Positions 9,448-15,605 of a stretch of DNA of 64,000 nucleotides are shown piece by piece (position 1 is the stretch's first letter; each line of letters opens with the position of its first letter). Under the pieces are notes generated by a model. It saw only the letters and a program-made list of their open reading frames with translations. It had not been told where the DNA came from and searched no databases. The stretch comes from Microbacterium sp. H83. GTDB taxonomy: Bacteria > Actinomycetota > Actinomycetes > Actinomycetales > Microbacteriaceae. The position numbers were made by a program, and so were the translations under genes. The stretch is from assembly GCF_001650405.1 (NCBI RefSeq), contig NZ_LWCU01000004.1, forward strand, positions 1-64,000, in the 5' to 3' direction.

Positions 9448-10464
9448 CTAGAGCCAGCCCTTGCGCTTGAACACGGCGTACAGGCCGATGCCCATCGCGA
9501 GCATCAGCCCGAGCGCCATCGGATACCCGAGCACCCAGTGCAGCTCGGGCATGTGGTCGAAGTTCATGCCGTAGACGGTGCCGACCAGCGTGGGGGCGAA
9601 GAGGATCGCCGCCCAGCCCGAGATCTTCTTCACCTCGTCGTTCTGACGGATGCTGAGCTCGGTCATCCGCCGCATCTCCTCGTTCTGCCGGCGCGCGACG
9701 ATCGTCGACTCCACGGTGAGAGCGTTGTCGAGCACCGTGCGGAAGGTCGTCGCGCGCTCCGAGACACGCAGCGTGTGGTCGAGCACGTCGCGGAGATACC
9801 GCTGCAGCTCCTCATCGACCCGGCACTTCTCCGACCCGCGCAGCAGGGCCTCGAGCATGCCGGTCAGGGGCTGCACCGCCCGCTGGAAGTCGATCACCTC
9901 GCGCCCGAGCTCGTAGATGCGCTGCGTCGCGTCGACCTCGTCCTCGAAGAGCTGGCTCTCGATCTCGTCGATGTCGTTCTCGAGGCCGGCGAGCACCGGC
10001 GCGTACTCGTCGACGACCTCGTCGAGGATCGCGTAGAGCACGGCCTCGGGGCCGAGCCTGAGCAGAGCGGGGTCGCCCTCCAGACGTCGACGCACCCGTC
10101 CGAGGTCGGGCGACTCCGCGTGCCGGATCGTGACGACGAAGTCGCGCCCCACGAGCACATGGATCTCGCCGAACTCCACCTCCTCGGCGGCGTCGAGGTA
10201 GCGCGCCGAGCGCAGCACCATGAACAGCACGTCGCCGTACCGCTCGAGCTTCGACCGCTGGTGGCCGGAGAGCGCGTCCTCCACCACGAGGGCGTGGATG
10301 CCGAACTCGTCGGCGACCTCGCGGATCTCGGCCTCGCTCGGCCGGTACAGGCCGATCCAGCTCATCCCGCCGCGCTCGCGCAGCACCTCGAACGTCTCGC
10401 TGAGGCTGTGCGGGTTCTCGGTGCGCACGCCGTCGACGTAGATCGCGTTGTCGATGATCGCCAT
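9448..10464 (-). CDS. corA: CorA-family magnesium/cobalt transporter
   Basis: A 338-residue pentameric channel-type Mg2+/Co2+ transporter. A large cytoplasmic alpha-beta domain is followed by a long stalk helix and two C-terminal transmembrane helices; the first ends in the selectivity motif YGMNFDHMPE, the CorA GMN signature. The tail KRKGWL is basic as expected. GAGGGAG precedes ATG. It is convergent with the small acidic gene. Confidence 0.93.
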   Translation of the reverse strand: MAIIDNAIYVDGVRTENPHSLSETFEVLRERGGMSWIGLYRPSEAEIREVADEFGIHALVVEDALSGHQRSKLERYGDVLFMVLRSARYLDAAEEVEFGEIHVLVGRDFVVTIRHAESPDLGRVRRRLEGDPALLRLGPEAVLYAILDEVVDEYAPVLAGLENDIDEIESQLFEDEVDATQRIYELGREVIDFQRAVQPLTGMLEALLRGSEKCRVDEELQRYLRDVLDHTLRVSERATTFRTVLDNALTVESTIVARRQNEEMRRMTELSIRQNDEVKKISGWAAILFAPTLVGTVYGMNFDHMPELHWVLGYPMALGLMLAMGIGLYAVFKRKGWL

Positions 10465-10515: not shown

Positions 10516-11796
10516 TCAGCCCGCGGGCGGGGCGACGCAGGCGACGGCCGTGTCGGCGATCGCCTGGTGGTACTGCTCCGCCGTGAACGGCAGGCCGAAC
10601 TCCGGCGCGGTCTCGCCCGAGGCGGCGGGCGCCTTCGAGGCGATGGCGGCGAGCTCCCACGACAGGTACGAGGCGATCGTGCCGCCGAGCGTCGAGTCGT
10701 TCAGCGACACCGCGACCGTGAACCCGGTGGCGGGGTCGCTGTATGCGGCGGTGGCGTAGCCGGGGGTCCAGCCGTACTGGCCGACGAGGCTTCCCACGAG
10801 GCTCGCGCCTCCCGTCGCCTGCTGCCATGACGGCGCGCCGTCGAACGCGGGGAGCGGAGCGGCGAACCGATCGGGCTCCTCCTCGGTGCGCAGCGCCTGG
10901 GCGGCTTCGGCCTGGGCGTAGCGGCCCAGATCCTCGATGGTCGACACCACTCCGGAGTCGGTGTAGCCGGTGCTCGAGGACATCGTGGTGATGTCCACGG
11001 GGGCGGCGCAGTTGTAGCCGCCTTCGACGGGGCTGAGGTAGTGGCCCTCCATGACGGCGTCGGACGACGGCGGAGCCGCCGCGGGCGACGGCAGCGACGT
11101 GTTCGCGAGGCCGAGCGGCTCGGTCACGTACTCGGCGATGAGCTCGGATGCCGTGCGGCCCGATGCCCGCTCCAGCGCGAGGCCCAGGAGGAGGTAGTTC
11201 ACGTCGGCGCCGTTGTACGTGCCGGGAGCCGAACGGGCCGCGCCCAGGCCCGAGGCCGCGAGCTCCAGCGGAGCCCACCGCCTCTCGGGGGTGCTCATCC
11301 AGGCCGGCTTGGCCGCCGCCTCGGACGAGCCGACGCCGGTCGTGGCGTTGCAGAGGTCGACGAGGGTGGCCTCCGTCAGATCCGGCACGCCCGACACGTA
11401 GTCGGGCACCGGGGCGTCGAGCTCGACGATGCCGTCGTCGGCGAGGCCGTACAGCACGTCGCAGGTCATCAGGCGGGTGACGTCTCCGATGCGGAACGCC
11501 ATGTCGGTGCTGATCTCCGCGCCCGCGCCGGGGTCCTGCGTGCCGACGCCGCTCACCCAGGTGCCGCTCCACGGCACCCAGACGCCGACGACGGCGCCGG
11601 TGGCGCCGGAGGCGACGAGCGCGTTGTTCACGGCATCCTGCATCGCGGCGACCGTGTCGTCGGGCAGGGCCGCGTCGACCTGGGCGGGCGGCGTGTAGCT
11701 GAAGTCGCGCTCCGCGGTGCACCCCGTGAGGAAGAGCCCGAGCACGGCGATGGAGGCCGCTGCGGCGCGGAATCGGCGCGACGAGAGAAGCTGCAT
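10516..11796 (-). CDS. Serine-hydrolase-like lipoprotein without catalytic residues
   Basis: A 426-residue lipoprotein (lipobox FLTGC, Cys26) with the class C beta-lactamase / D-Ala carboxypeptidase fold. Fold landmarks are intact, for example FRIGDVTRLMT near residue 101 and NYLLLGLALERASG. The catalytic SxxK is replaced by D105-V-T-R108, the YxN position reads GAD, and the third motif is YGWTPGY with no His-Thr-Gly. It should not act as a serine hydrolase and may be a binding or structural protein. The start follows CCGGGGG. Divergent from the DUF2470 gene. Confidence 0.8.
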   Translation of the reverse strand: MQLLSSRRFRAAAASIAVLGLFLTGCTAERDFSYTPPAQVDAALPDDTVAAMQDAVNNALVASGATGAVVGVWVPWSGTWVSGVGTQDPGAGAEISTDMAFRIGDVTRLMTCDVLYGLADDGIVELDAPVPDYVSGVPDLTEATLVDLCNATTGVGSSEAAAKPAWMSTPERRWAPLELAASGLGAARSAPGTYNGADVNYLLLGLALERASGRTASELIAEYVTEPLGLANTSLPSPAAAPPSSDAVMEGHYLSPVEGGYNCAAPVDITTMSSSTGYTDSGVVSTIEDLGRYAQAEAAQALRTEEEPDRFAAPLPAFDGAPSWQQATGGASLVGSLVGQYGWTPGYATAAYSDPATGFTVAVSLNDSTLGGTIASYLSWELAAIASKAPAASGETAPEFGLPFTAEQYHQAIADTAVACVAPPAG

Positions 11797-11884
11797 GAAG
11801 GGGACCCCCGGAAGATGTGTCTCCCGAGTCTAGAACGCGGATCCTGAAAGACCGCATCGCCCAGCCGCCCTTAGGGTGATGAGC

Positions 11885-12208
11885 ATGCCCCACACCTTCG
11901 AATCCGACGTCGTCGCCGCGATCCTCCGCCACATGAACGGCGACCACACCGACGACAACCTGCTCATCGCCCGCGCGTTCTCGCCCGCGGCGGAGGGCGG
12001 GGCCGACGGGATCACCGGTGCGGTGATGACCGGGTTCGACGGCGACGGCGGCACGTGGGAGGTCACGCGCGAGGATGCGGCGACCGAGCTGCGCGTGCCG
12101 TGGCCCGGCGGCCCGATCGCCGACCGTCCCGCCGTGCGGCGCGAGGTCGTGGCGCTGTACGACCTGGCCTGCGAGCGGCTCGGCGTCGAGCCCCGCCCGC
12201 ACGCCTGA
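11885..12208 (+). CDS. DUF2470 domain protein
   Basis: A 107-residue protein consisting of one DUF2470 domain. ILRHMNGDHTDDNLLIARAF is the characteristic His-rich start found at the end of HugZ-type heme-degrading proteins. Free-standing copies are common in actinobacteria, and this one precedes a heme oxygenase, so a link to heme is plausible but inferred. TAGGGT at 11872-11877, seven bases before ATG, suggests leaderless expression; an in-frame upstream start would precede the transcript. Confidence 0.75.
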   Translation: MPHTFESDVVAAILRHMNGDHTDDNLLIARAFSPAAEGGADGITGAVMTGFDGDGGTWEVTREDAATELRVPWPGGPIADRPAVRREVVALYDLACERLGVEPRPHA

Positions 12209-12211
12209 GGC

Positions 12212-12259
12212 CGAGAGTCACGCGGAGGGCTTCGTCGAGAGTCACGCGGAGGGTTTCGC
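12212..12259. repeat. Two tandem 24-bp repeats before heme oxygenase
   Basis: Two head-to-tail copies of 24 bp (12212-12235 and 12236-12259) with 22 of 24 bases identical; each starts CGAGAGTCACGCGGAGGG. They end one base before the iron box of the heme oxygenase promoter. They could be activator sites or a recent duplication; the copies do not encode a peptide of either neighbour. Confidence 0.7.
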
Positions 12260-12260
12260 C

Positions 12261-12283
12261 AAAGGTAAGGCTGCCCTTACACT
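12261..12283 (+). promoter_or_regulatory. DtxR/IdeR-like iron box and -10 of heme oxygenase
   Basis: AAAGGTAAGGCTGCCCTTA (12261-12279) matches 13 of 19 positions of the DtxR/IdeR consensus as remembered, including AGG, AGGCT and CCT. It overlaps the -10 TACACT (12278-12283), which lies six bases before the ATG. Iron-loaded repressor would therefore block the promoter, giving heme degradation under iron limitation. Corynebacterial hmuO is known to be DtxR-controlled. Confidence 0.7.
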
Positions 12284-12289
12284 GAGGAC

Positions 12290-12937
12290 ATGTCCGAGAT
12301 CCTCTCCTTCTCCGCCGCGCTCCGCGAGCGCTCGTCCAGCTCGCACTCCCGCAGCGAGGGCGCCGGATTCATGTCCGACCTCCTGAAGGGCGAGGGCTCC
12401 CGCGAGGACTACATCGCTCTCGTGGCACAGCACTACTTCATCTACGAGGCGCTCGAGGGCGCCGGCGACCGGATGCGCCAGGATCCCGTGGCATCCGTCT
12501 TCCTCAGCGACAAGCTGACCCGCCTGCCCGCGCTGGAGGCCGACCTCGAGTTCCTCCTCGGCGCCGACTGGCGCGAGCAGATCCTGCCGCTGCCCACCAC
12601 GCAGCGCTACGTCGAGCGCATCCGCCAGGTCGGCGCGACCTGGGCCGGCGGATTCGTGGCGCACCACTACACGCGCTACCTCGGCGACCTGTCGGGCGGC
12701 ATCTTCATCGGTCGCGTGATGGCCCGACGCTTCGGCTTCGAGACCAACGGCATCGGCTTCTACCTGTTCGACGACATCGCCGACCCGTCGGCCTTCAAGG
12801 ACGTCTACCGCGAGCAGCTCGACGCGGCGCCGTGGGACCAGGCCGAGCGCGAGCGCGTGATCGACGAGGTCCTGCTCGCGTACCGCTTCAACACCGAGCT
12901 CTTCGAGGACCTCGACCGCGCCCGACTCGTCGCCTGA
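12290..12937 (+). CDS. Biliverdin-producing heme oxygenase
   Basis: Oxidatively opens heme to biliverdin, carbon monoxide and ferrous iron in the cytoplasm, releasing iron from host or environmental heme. The 215-residue length and all-helical pattern fit HmuO-type enzymes. His19 in SSSSHSRSEGAGFM is the expected proximal heme ligand, and YTRYLGDLSGGIFIGR is the distal-helix glycine motif. Expression is probably leaderless and iron-repressed through the box immediately upstream. DUF2470 precedes it. It is convergent with a helicase gene. Confidence 0.92.
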   Translation: MSEILSFSAALRERSSSSHSRSEGAGFMSDLLKGEGSREDYIALVAQHYFIYEALEGAGDRMRQDPVASVFLSDKLTRLPALEADLEFLLGADWREQILPLPTTQRYVERIRQVGATWAGGFVAHHYTRYLGDLSGGIFIGRVMARRFGFETNGIGFYLFDDIADPSAFKDVYREQLDAAPWDQAERERVIDEVLLAYRFNTELFEDLDRARLVA

Positions 12938-12958: not shown

Positions 12959-14353
12959 TCACGCGCGCGGCAGCTCCGGCGTGGACGCCGCCAGCCAGGC
13001 GTCGCGCATGAAGCGGCGCACGTCCTCGTCGACCCGGATGTCACTGGGGCGCAGCGCCCTCGACAGGTACAGCCCGTCGAGCGAGGTGAGCCGCGACAGC
13101 GCCACGTAGGTCTGCCCCGGAGCGAATGCGCCCGACCCCAGGTCGACGATCGCGCGCTCGTACGTCTTGCCCTGGGACTTGTGGATCGTCACCGCCCACG
13201 CCAGGCGCAGCGGGAACTGCGTGAACTCGGCGACCACGTCGCGGGTCAGCTTCTTCGTGCTCGGCTCGTAGGAGTAGCGGAACCGCTCCCAGACCGCGGG
13301 CTCGACGTCGACCTCCTCGCCGTCGATCTCGACGCGCACCGTCTCTCCGAGGATGCGGACGACCGTGCCGATCGTGCCGTTCACCCAGCGCGGCGGCTCG
13401 CCGGACATCGAGGTGTCGTTGCGCAGGAACATGACCTGCGCGCCGACCTTCAGCTTGAGCTCGGGCTCGGCCGGCAGCGACGCCTCGCCGCGTCCGAACT
13501 CGCCGCTCACCTCGGCCCTGGCGGTCTGCTCCTTGCCAGGGAGGGCGGCGAGGTGGCGGCTGTTGATGCTGTTGACGATGTCGTTGCGGGTCGCGAGCGT
13601 GATCATCGGCACCTCGCCCGGCTCGGGGTCGGGCGGCGTGCGCGCACCCCGGGTGTTGAGGATGCCCGCGATCTCGGCGGTGACGCGGCCGTAGCGCACG
13701 GCGTTGAGCATCGCCTTGAACCCGTCGTCGGACTGCCGGTGGATCTGCACCAGCTCGCGCACGTGCAGCTCTGCGCGGGTGTCGACCGCGAACAGCCCGC
13801 CGTCGCCGTCGTCGCCCTCGCCGCCGCCCGACCCCGCCCACACCTTGGCGTCGAAGAACCAGAACGAGCGGTAGTGGTCCTTCACGTAGCGCAGCTCCTC
13901 GCCGCGCGGCGGCACGGGCGCGAGCTGGTAGGGGTCGCCGAACATGACGATCTGCACGCCGCCGAAGGGAATGCCGCGCTTGCCGCGCGCCTGCCGGAGC
14001 GAGCGGTCGATGGCATCCATCAGGTCGGCGTTCACCATCGAGATCTCGTCGATCACGAGCGTCTCGATCGCGTTGAGGATGCGGCGCGTGTTGTCGTTCT
14101 GGTCGATGTCCGACCCGCCGATCAGGCCGATCGGCAGCCGGAACAGCGAGTGGATGGTCTGCCCCTCGACGTTCAGCGCCGCGACGCCCGTCGGCGCGCA
14201 GATCGCGATCTGCTTCTTCGTGTTCCACGAGAAGTACTGCAGGAGCGTCGACTTGCCCGTGCCGGCCCGACCGGTGATGAAGACGTGCTCGCTCGTGTCC
14301 TCGATGAGGCGGAACAGCTCGTGCTGCTCGTCGGACAGGGCGGGGATCGACAC
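12959..14353 (-). CDS. PIF1/RecD-like DNA helicase (AAA family)
   Basis: A 464-residue superfamily 1B helicase. Walker A is GRAGTGKST near residue 29, Walker B is LVIDEISMVNADLMD near 110, and the C-terminal UvrD_C_2 region reads VTIHKSQGKTYERAIVDL then YVALSRLTSLDGLYLSRAL. It should translocate on single-stranded DNA; PIF1-like enzymes help replication past obstacles. A GTG start at VSIPALSDEQ is preferred. An ATG 28 codons earlier would add an Arg/Pro/Ser head encoded by a simple GGGAC repeat, which looks non-coding. Confidence 0.85.
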   Translation of the reverse strand: MSIPALSDEQHELFRLIEDTSEHVFITGRAGTGKSTLLQYFSWNTKKQIAICAPTGVAALNVEGQTIHSLFRLPIGLIGGSDIDQNDNTRRILNAIETLVIDEISMVNADLMDAIDRSLRQARGKRGIPFGGVQIVMFGDPYQLAPVPPRGEELRYVKDHYRSFWFFDAKVWAGSGGGEGDDGDGGLFAVDTRAELHVRELVQIHRQSDDGFKAMLNAVRYGRVTAEIAGILNTRGARTPPDPEPGEVPMITLATRNDIVNSINSRHLAALPGKEQTARAEVSGEFGRGEASLPAEPELKLKVGAQVMFLRNDTSMSGEPPRWVNGTIGTVVRILGETVRVEIDGEEVDVEPAVWERFRYSYEPSTKKLTRDVVAEFTQFPLRLAWAVTIHKSQGKTYERAIVDLGSGAFAPGQTYVALSRLTSLDGLYLSRALRPSDIRVDEDVRRFMRDAWLAASTPELPRA

Positions 14354-14534
14354 GGTTCTCTCACGGGGACGGGACGGGACGGGGCGGGACGGGGAGGTCC
14401 GCAGCCGCGGGACGACGCGACGGACGCGCCTCTCCATGGTACGGCGAGCCGTCGCCCGCGCATCCGCCTTCGCTTGTGTCCTCCCGTGCCTGCGCGCTCG
14501 GCGTCGTCCCAGGCCGCGCTCCTAGACTGACGCC

Positions 14535-15605
14535 ATGCAGCAGGCTGAGTCGACGGCGCCCCGGCGCTCTCGTCTGGCTGCCGACATGGCGCTGCTCTCG
14601 GTGGTCGGTCTGGCGCTCGTCGCGGCCCTGGCCGCGGGCGGTGCCACGCTGTATCAGCAGTTCTACGGGCCGTCGGCGTTCGTCGTGCGCTATCTCGACC
14701 TGCTCTCGCAGGGACGCGCGGCGGACGCCCTGCAGGTGCCGGGTGTCGCGATCGACCGCGAGACGCTGGAGCTCGCGGGGATCGGCGCCTCGGCCTCCGA
14801 GGCCATGCTGCGGCAGTCCGCTCTCGCGCCGCTGACCGACGTCGAGGTGCTGTCGGAGAAGCCCGACGGCGACACCACCGCCGTCACCGTGTCGTACTCG
14901 GCCAGCGGCCACGAGGGGACCACCACCTTCTCGGTCGCTCAGGACGGCTGGGCCGGGGTCACGCCCAACTGGCGCTTCACCACGAGTCCCCTCGCGGTCG
15001 TCGAGCTGACCCTCCGCGGCGCCGACCGGTTCGCCGTCAACGGCTTCGAGGTCGACCGCCGGCAGGTCTCGATCGACGGCGCGAGCGCCGCACCCCTCGA
15101 CCCGCTGCCGCTGCTCGTCTTCACCCCCGGCCTCTACTCGGTCACGGTCGACACTCCCATCGCGCGCTCCGAGGGCGTCGGGGTCCTCGCCGACAGCCCC
15201 CTGGCCACGACGCCGGTCGACGTGCAGACCGAGCCCACGGAGGAGTTCGTCGCCGTCGTGCAGGAACGGGTGGAGGAGTTCCTCACCGAGTGCACGACGC
15301 AGGAGGTGCTGCAGCCCACCGCCTGCCCGTTCGGACTCGAGGTGTCCAATCGCATCGCCTCGCTGCCGAAATGGTCGATCGCGGTGCAGCCGACCGTGAC
15401 GGTCGTGCCCGAGGACGGTCACTGGCAGATCCCGACGACGGATGCCGTGGCGCACGTCGAGGTGGAGATCAAGTCGCTCTTCGACGGCAAGGTGCAGGCG
15501 ATCTCCGAGGACGTGCCGTTCCAGATCGACGGATCGATCACGATCATGCCCGACGGGAGCGCGTCGATCCGGGTCGGCTCTCCCGGCGAGCTGCCCGCCG
15601 ACTGA
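14535..15605 (+). CDS. Membrane-anchored hypothetical protein
   Basis: A 356-residue protein with a basic head, one transmembrane helix at about residues 18-38 and a long extracytoplasmic part rich in beta-type sequence. It has two cysteines in ECTTQEVLQPTAC that may form a disulfide. The family is not recognised; the outline resembles actinobacterial secreted proteins with DUF4878/DUF5667-like folds, but I cannot assign it. TAGACT six bases before ATG points to a leaderless mRNA. Divergent from the helicase and convergent with the CopD/CtaG gene. Confidence 0.75.
   Translation: MQQAESTAPRRSRLAADMALLSVVGLALVAALAAGGATLYQQFYGPSAFVVRYLDLLSQGRAADALQVPGVAIDRETLELAGIGASASEAMLRQSALAPLTDVEVLSEKPDGDTTAVTVSYSASGHEGTTTFSVAQDGWAGVTPNWRFTTSPLAVVELTLRGADRFAVNGFEVDRRQVSIDGASAAPLDPLPLLVFTPGLYSVTVDTPIARSEGVGVLADSPLATTPVDVQTEPTEEFVAVVQERVEEFLTECTTQEVLQPTACPFGLEVSNRIASLPKWSIAVQPTVTVVPEDGHWQIPTTDAVAHVEVEIKSLFDGKVQAISEDVPFQIDGSITIMPDGSASIRVGSPGELPAD

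Follow-up and report, generated by a model that had tools for sequence, protein, structure and literature searches.

A predicted lipoprotein with the R61-type DD-peptidase fold, retained across Microbacterium without its catalytic residues

The gene at positions 10516 to 11796 of the window (the whole stretch of DNA analysed, 64,000 nucleotides from Microbacterium sp. H83) is predicted, from comparisons of its sequence across the genus and the family, to encode a conserved pseudoenzyme of a known fold, kept by selection without catalytic motifs. The motifs of Peptidase S12 and serine penicillin-recognising enzymes, SxxK, Y-x-N (S-x-N) and H-x-G (K-T-G), were looked for in the protein and none of the three is present. 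In our judgement it is likely that the lost catalysis had become dispensable and that a second, non-catalytic function at the cell surface kept the gene, the fold, the cysteines and the C-terminal tail. The open reading frame with its lipobox lies where the original prediction had placed it, on the minus strand, and its features and neighbours are the following.

10516..11796, minus strand: predicted lipoprotein of 426 amino acids with the PF00144 / R61 DD-peptidase fold and without the catalytic residues (open reading frame, Pfam, AlphaFold2, fold search)
11719..11796, minus strand: signal peptide and lipobox L-T-G-C (residues 23-26), with Cys26 as the predicted lipidation site (sequence; Cys26 in all 195 genus rows aligned there)
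10690..11613, minus strand: beta-lactamase / DD-peptidase domain, residues 62-369 (Pfam PF00144, E 4.9e-31; R61 fold match)
11557..11586, minus strand: GVWVPWSGTW hairpin, residues 71-80, with the family-specific W76 (comparison with canonical relatives)
11473..11484, minus strand: former SxxK motif, D105-V-T-R108 (pairwise and genus alignment)
11203..11211, minus strand: former YxN motif, G196-A-D198 (pairwise and genus alignment)
10771..10779, minus strand: former HxG motif, Q340-Y-G342, H lost and G kept (pairwise and genus alignment)
11461..11463, minus strand: Cys112, invariant (196 of 196 aligned), with a proposed disulfide to Cys149, the pairing being putative
11350..11352, minus strand: Cys149, invariant (196 of 196 aligned)
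11008..11010, minus strand: Cys263, invariant (197 of 197), with a proposed disulfide to Cys420, the pairing again putative
10537..10650, minus strand: C-terminal tail, residues 383-420, ending in Cys420 (194 of 194 aligned), outside the Pfam domain and kept in intact and degenerate members
12959..14437, minus strand: upstream PIF1-like helicase gene on the same strand, a syntenic marker
11876..12208, plus strand: DUF2470 gene, divergent neighbour
12290..12937, plus strand: heme oxygenase gene, divergent neighbour
9448..10464, minus strand: downstream CorA-like transporter gene, adjoining in part of the genus records only

The lipobox, with its cysteine present throughout the genus rows aligned there, marks the product as a predicted bacterial lipoprotein. 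Its PF00144 score is 108.5 bits against a curated cut-off of 27. As regards class C beta-lactamases, none of the six NCBIfam models listed scored up to its cut-off, and the catalytic residues are absent. An AlphaFold2 model, computed from an alignment of 83 family members (mean pLDDT 93.7, pTM 0.91), gives the protein the R61-type DD-peptidase / class C fold. Foldseek placed the R61 DD-peptidase first (E 2.7e-23) and alkaline D-peptidase next to it (E 7.2e-23), and in VIA-align the D-stereospecific hydrolase dHy1 (9s7k), alkaline D-peptidase (4y7p) and R61 scored equally, at Z 39.7-40.0 across roughly 330 residues, the R61 structure 3pte aligning over 328 residues with Z 39.7 and rmsd 2.3. With the Streptomyces R61 DD-peptidase (S12), the Bacillus alkaline D-peptidase and dHy1 the fold is shared over residues 46 to 390, approximately, and the first two are also sequence homologues; unlike all three, the window protein has no catalytic Ser, Lys, Tyr or His, and it differs further in its lipid anchor, in four additional cysteines and in its C-terminal tail. 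FmtA-like protein, DltE, EstG and LACTB are also among its fold matches; these proteins put the R61-type fold to jobs besides peptidoglycan DD-cleavage and keep the catalytic serine. A separate observation is that two chains of the mycobacteriophage Bxb1 tail tip (PDB 9d93, Sa and Sb) are among the closest fold matches, chain Sb with Z 39.7, so that a phage tail carries an R61-type fold too.

The former motifs were located by pairwise alignment of the window protein with alkaline D-peptidase and R61. FRIGDVTRLM aligns on FRIGSVTKTF, with D105 in place of the serine and R108 in place of the lysine, and NGADVNY aligns on SYSNTGY, with G196 for the tyrosine and D198 for the asparagine; the original prediction had read D-V-T-R for S-x-x-K and G-A-D for Y-x-N, and both readings agree with the two alignments. 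It had also taken W-T-P (residues 343-345) for the HTG region, which lies three residues too far downstream. In the alkaline D-peptidase alignment, the only one to extend that far since the R61 alignment stops earlier, VGQYGWTPGY lies on WGHGGSIPGF and the motif is Q340-Y341-G342, with the histidine lost and the glycine retained; W-T-P was excluded as the third motif.

A strong match to the protein was found in 192 of the 198 Microbacterium genomes sampled; those without one are G030, G039, G041, G105, G159 and G163, and G041 and G105 are more than 90% complete. Together with five genomes from the order search, 197 genus genomes were read, 196 of them aligned at the motif positions; two rows (L065 and L070) absent from the first set, owing to an automatic extension of their ends past the stop, were restored later. 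Among the 196, a catalytic lysine at 108 or tyrosine at 196 never occurs, the histidine at 340 occurs once and the serine at 105 four times. The motif loss is not an accident of one strain, because the gene is that widespread and none of the aligned genomes has the lysine or the tyrosine. Position 105 takes 14 residue types, with aspartate in 94 genomes, and position 108 is arginine in 182 and glycine in 14, so that of the D-V-T-R whose conservation the original prediction had put forward for comparison the arginine is largely conserved among the genus orthologues but the aspartate is not. Since position 105 takes so many residue types, a replacement nucleophile there is unlikely, and aspartate as the substitute was ruled out by this free variation.

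Changes within the genus were counted on a quickly built tree with 251 rows, 195 of them Microbacterium, from which the motif columns were excluded and rows with fewer than 330 filled columns were dropped. Position 105 has 49 inferred changes and position 196 has 28, the median domain column having 27.5, while 108, 198 and 340 have 2, 6 and 8 and Cys112, Cys149 and Cys263 have none. Besides R108, the pocket positions S197 (185 of 196), D198 (181) and Q340 (187) are near fixed. It appears from these alignments that the nucleophile site is free to vary and that several of its neighbours are nearly frozen at non-catalytic residues. R108 occurs with D198 in 178 of the 182 genomes that have it, and G108 with D198 in 3 of 14; coupling of the two positions was considered on these striking raw counts, yet they amount to five independent pairs on supported branches, too few to test.

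Beyond Microbacterium, two profiles were used: A1, made of the genus proteins, and the broader A2, with 83 members. With A1, 78 of 299 sampled Microbacteriaceae genomes scored at least 200 bits, six of the genus and 72 from others; 17 of these 72 were left unread, and the 59 other-genus genomes that were read include one from the order search and three below 200 bits. Cys112 and Cys149 are present in the 56 read at 200 bits or more. All of S105, K108, Y196 and H340 are kept in eight of the 59, namely L199 and seven intact orthologues, which belong to four genera (g54, g58, g61 and g70) and stand at the conserved locus. Orthologues that keep SxxK, which had been named as evidence against a selected non-catalytic role, thus exist in other genera, but Ser105 and Lys108 occur together in none of the 196 Microbacterium genomes. 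At 198, L138 has D instead of N, and the three g54 members have S instead of G at 342; partial losses are also seen, L176 keeping the serine and YSN without the lysine or the histidine, and L175 and L174 keeping the histidine alone. L199 (G430, genus g76) was rejected as an intact orthologue, as it has the four catalytic residues but two of the four cysteines and no locus neighbours; it is perhaps an outlying branch. The commonest letters at 198 and 340 in the other genera are again D (28 of 59) and Q (21 of 59), so the old cleft may be less free there than positions 105, 108 and 196 imply. In genus g80 (L158-L163), the six genomes read all have arginine at 198 and glycine, serine or threonine at 108, a reversal of the R108-D198 pair of Microbacterium.

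The locus is shared by intact and degenerate members. The counts are of records whose upstream stretch is 900 bases or longer; in every class, a good many of them reach no farther than about 1.5 kb. A PIF1, DUF2470 or heme oxygenase gene adjoins in 154 of 157 Microbacterium records, in 41 of 51 degenerate records from other genera and in all seven intact ones, and beside none of 16 records of canonical relatives. The ten degenerate records without any of the three neighbours each have less than 1.5 kb upstream. As observations on the neighbourhood itself, the divergent DUF2470 and heme oxygenase genes (window 11876-12937) adjoin the lipoprotein gene in 126 and 131 of the 157 Microbacterium records and in several other genera, and they are possibly a heme-degradation unit; beside the PIF1-like helicase gene, an open reading frame of 356 amino acids (window 14535-15605) has no Pfam match at 1e-5.

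Farther out, the order search (297 genomes, A1) found nothing outside the family above 135 bits, and the class search (296 genomes, A2) found outsiders at up to 294 bits. Of the outsiders to both the family and the order, the 18 with the highest scores were read at their best place; in all 18 the Ser, Lys, Tyr and His of the active site are present and the four cysteines absent. Within this sampling, the lipoprotein family with four extra cysteines and the C-terminal tail appears to be confined to Microbacteriaceae.

Several features are kept irrespective of catalysis. Intact and degenerate members share W76, the four cysteines (C112, C149, C263 and C420) and, in the tail, P398, L402 and P403. 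W76 is found in none of the 17 canonical relatives aligned there, in a fraction of 0.90 of the degenerate members from other genera and in 1.00 of the intact ones; C263 is in none of 20 canonical relatives, C112 and C149 are each in one of 28 (identified by its motifs as L199), and over the tail region no canonical relative aligned. The proposed pairing of C112 with C149 and of C263 with C420 is suggested by L199, in which only the first pair of cysteines is present. Among 53 degenerate rows, 52 from other genera and one from a Microbacteriaceae record of unstated genus, a ranking of the domain positions by conservation gives percentiles of 9, 12 and 0 for positions 105, 108 and 196, of 53 and 37 for 198 and 340, and of 95 for the cysteines. 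This comparison points to a function that would lie largely outside the old active site and would be older than the loss, though positions 198 and 340 are constrained.

The genome probably has other proteins for the ancestral chemistry. It encodes only one further PF00144 protein, which has SVTK and YSN but no lipobox, and two S11 relatives, and no match to family S13 was found in it; therefore DD-peptidase chemistry is probably covered elsewhere. By eye, the S11 relative L322 has all three motifs (SVTK, SAN and KTG). The other, L321 (1075-2484), has SITK, SAS and KTG by eye; with S-A-S for S-x-N, it is perhaps a second altered wall-peptidase relative. In the mechanism that we propose, the ancestor would have been an active serine acyl-enzyme, a DD-peptidase or similar, which also had a second, non-catalytic function on the outside of the membrane; with other peptidases present its catalysis would have become dispensable, and the second function would have preserved the gene. 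The present protein, which has no Ser105 to acylate, would be anchored through a lipidated Cys26 and stapled by two disulfides, and it would most likely bind a partner in the cell wall or serve as its scaffold. Contact with the partner would be made away from the old active site, through surfaces common to the intact and the degenerate members, namely the W76 hairpin and the C-terminal tail. In Microbacterium the pocket would then have been frozen anew (R108, S197, D198, Q340), plausibly with an R-D salt bridge replacing the Lys-Asn pair.

The alternatives differ in what they make of the altered pocket. That the protein is a decaying DD-peptidase relict under relaxed selection is, to us, scarcely credible. 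Such a relict would have a freely varying nucleophile position, as seen here, and two Microbacterium copies, L044 (G184) and L050 (G083), look frameshifted, one of them within the C-terminal tail, through loss or assembly error. The median dN/dS of 0.42 over 5450 more divergent pairs (dS 0.1-1.2) could be taken in the same sense, although we infer that it is due to saturated synonymous sites at high GC; in 137 close pairs (dN below 0.12; 106 distinct genus coding sequences) the median is 0.155 and the maximum 0.21. These low values, the presence of the gene across nearly the whole genus, the invariant cysteines and the conserved locus stand against decay and bear out the original prediction in preferring a selected non-catalytic role; decay in this one strain was ruled out by the genus-wide conservation, the dN/dS and the conservation of the locus. 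The protein might instead be an enzyme still, through another catalytic residue or a migrated nucleophile, and there is precedent for pseudoenzymes with alternative activities in SelO and SidJ, as given in the available text of one paper (PMC10211241). We rate this as very improbable, given the 14 residue types and 49 inferred changes at position 105 and the nature of the near-fixed R108 and Q340, which are not usual nucleophiles.

The main rival is a sensor that would use the cleft, in which the remodelled pocket (R108, S197, D198, Q340) binds a peptidoglycan stem peptide or a beta-lactam non-covalently and signals to a partner. It would account for the near fixation of these four residues in the genus, for the company that R108 and D198 keep in the raw counts and for D198 and Q340 as the commonest letters in other genera also. 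We nevertheless consider it unlikely, since no signalling domain was recognised, the helices before the domain being the signal peptide and helix 46-63 only, since positions 105, 108 and 196 rank near the bottom for conservation in the degenerate rows (198 and 340 are in the middle range), and since the R-D coupling comes down to so few independent pairs. Penicillin or peptidoglycan sensing, which the original prediction had offered as the role, likewise finds no support in a protein with one recognised domain and a lipid anchor. In the penicillin sensors BlaR1 and MecR1 a serine is acylated and the signalling domains span the membrane; what the sensing idea has in common with them is a membrane-located domain of the penicillin-recognising kind, but the window protein has neither an acylable serine nor a signalling membrane domain. 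A non-catalytic partner-binding role outside the cleft is still the reading that we prefer.

How often catalysis was lost was estimated on two trees. Identity thinning left 108 rows, and those at 140 bits or more gave a tree of 103 rows; thinning the Microbacterium rows further gave one of 64. The fewest changes needed are four on the former (five when SxxK is scored alone) and three on the latter, and the AU test leaves a single loss unrejected on both (p 0.109 and 0.142, respectively). We put forward only tentatively, and lean somewhat against, the fuller history in which an ancient second function outlived the chemistry, catalysis disappeared in several independent events at one conserved locus, and the dead site of Microbacterium was rebuilt into a fixed R108-D198-Q340 arrangement with a new structural or binding role.

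Among the openly licensed papers searched, we recognised none, by title and the start of the abstract, that describes a pseudoenzyme of the R61-type fold, and the available text of a Clavibacter paper (PMC9603630) has no bearing on the lipoprotein gene. The closest published evolutionary pattern that we found, in the text available to us, is that of the fungal Ssd1/Dis3L2 pseudonucleases, whose fold and biology are unrelated to the window protein: orthologues with and without an active site exist, the site is reported lost in at least four lineages, and the proposal made there is of a second function that stayed conserved through repeated losses of RNase activity (PMC8097288). For annotation, a PF00144 match at 0.001 is obtained in all 83 members of A2, and on the strength of PF00144 alone they would all be named beta-lactamase-like, a label that might misdirect resistance screening and the mining for enzymes. 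It is usually as enzymes that low-molecular-weight penicillin-recognising proteins are named and investigated, yet many of their knockouts show little. In this family, naturally occurring orthologues that have the active site and others that lack it stand at one locus, and the inactive form is nearly genus-wide in the Microbacterium genomes sampled, so that the non-catalytic function of such a protein would be isolable directly.
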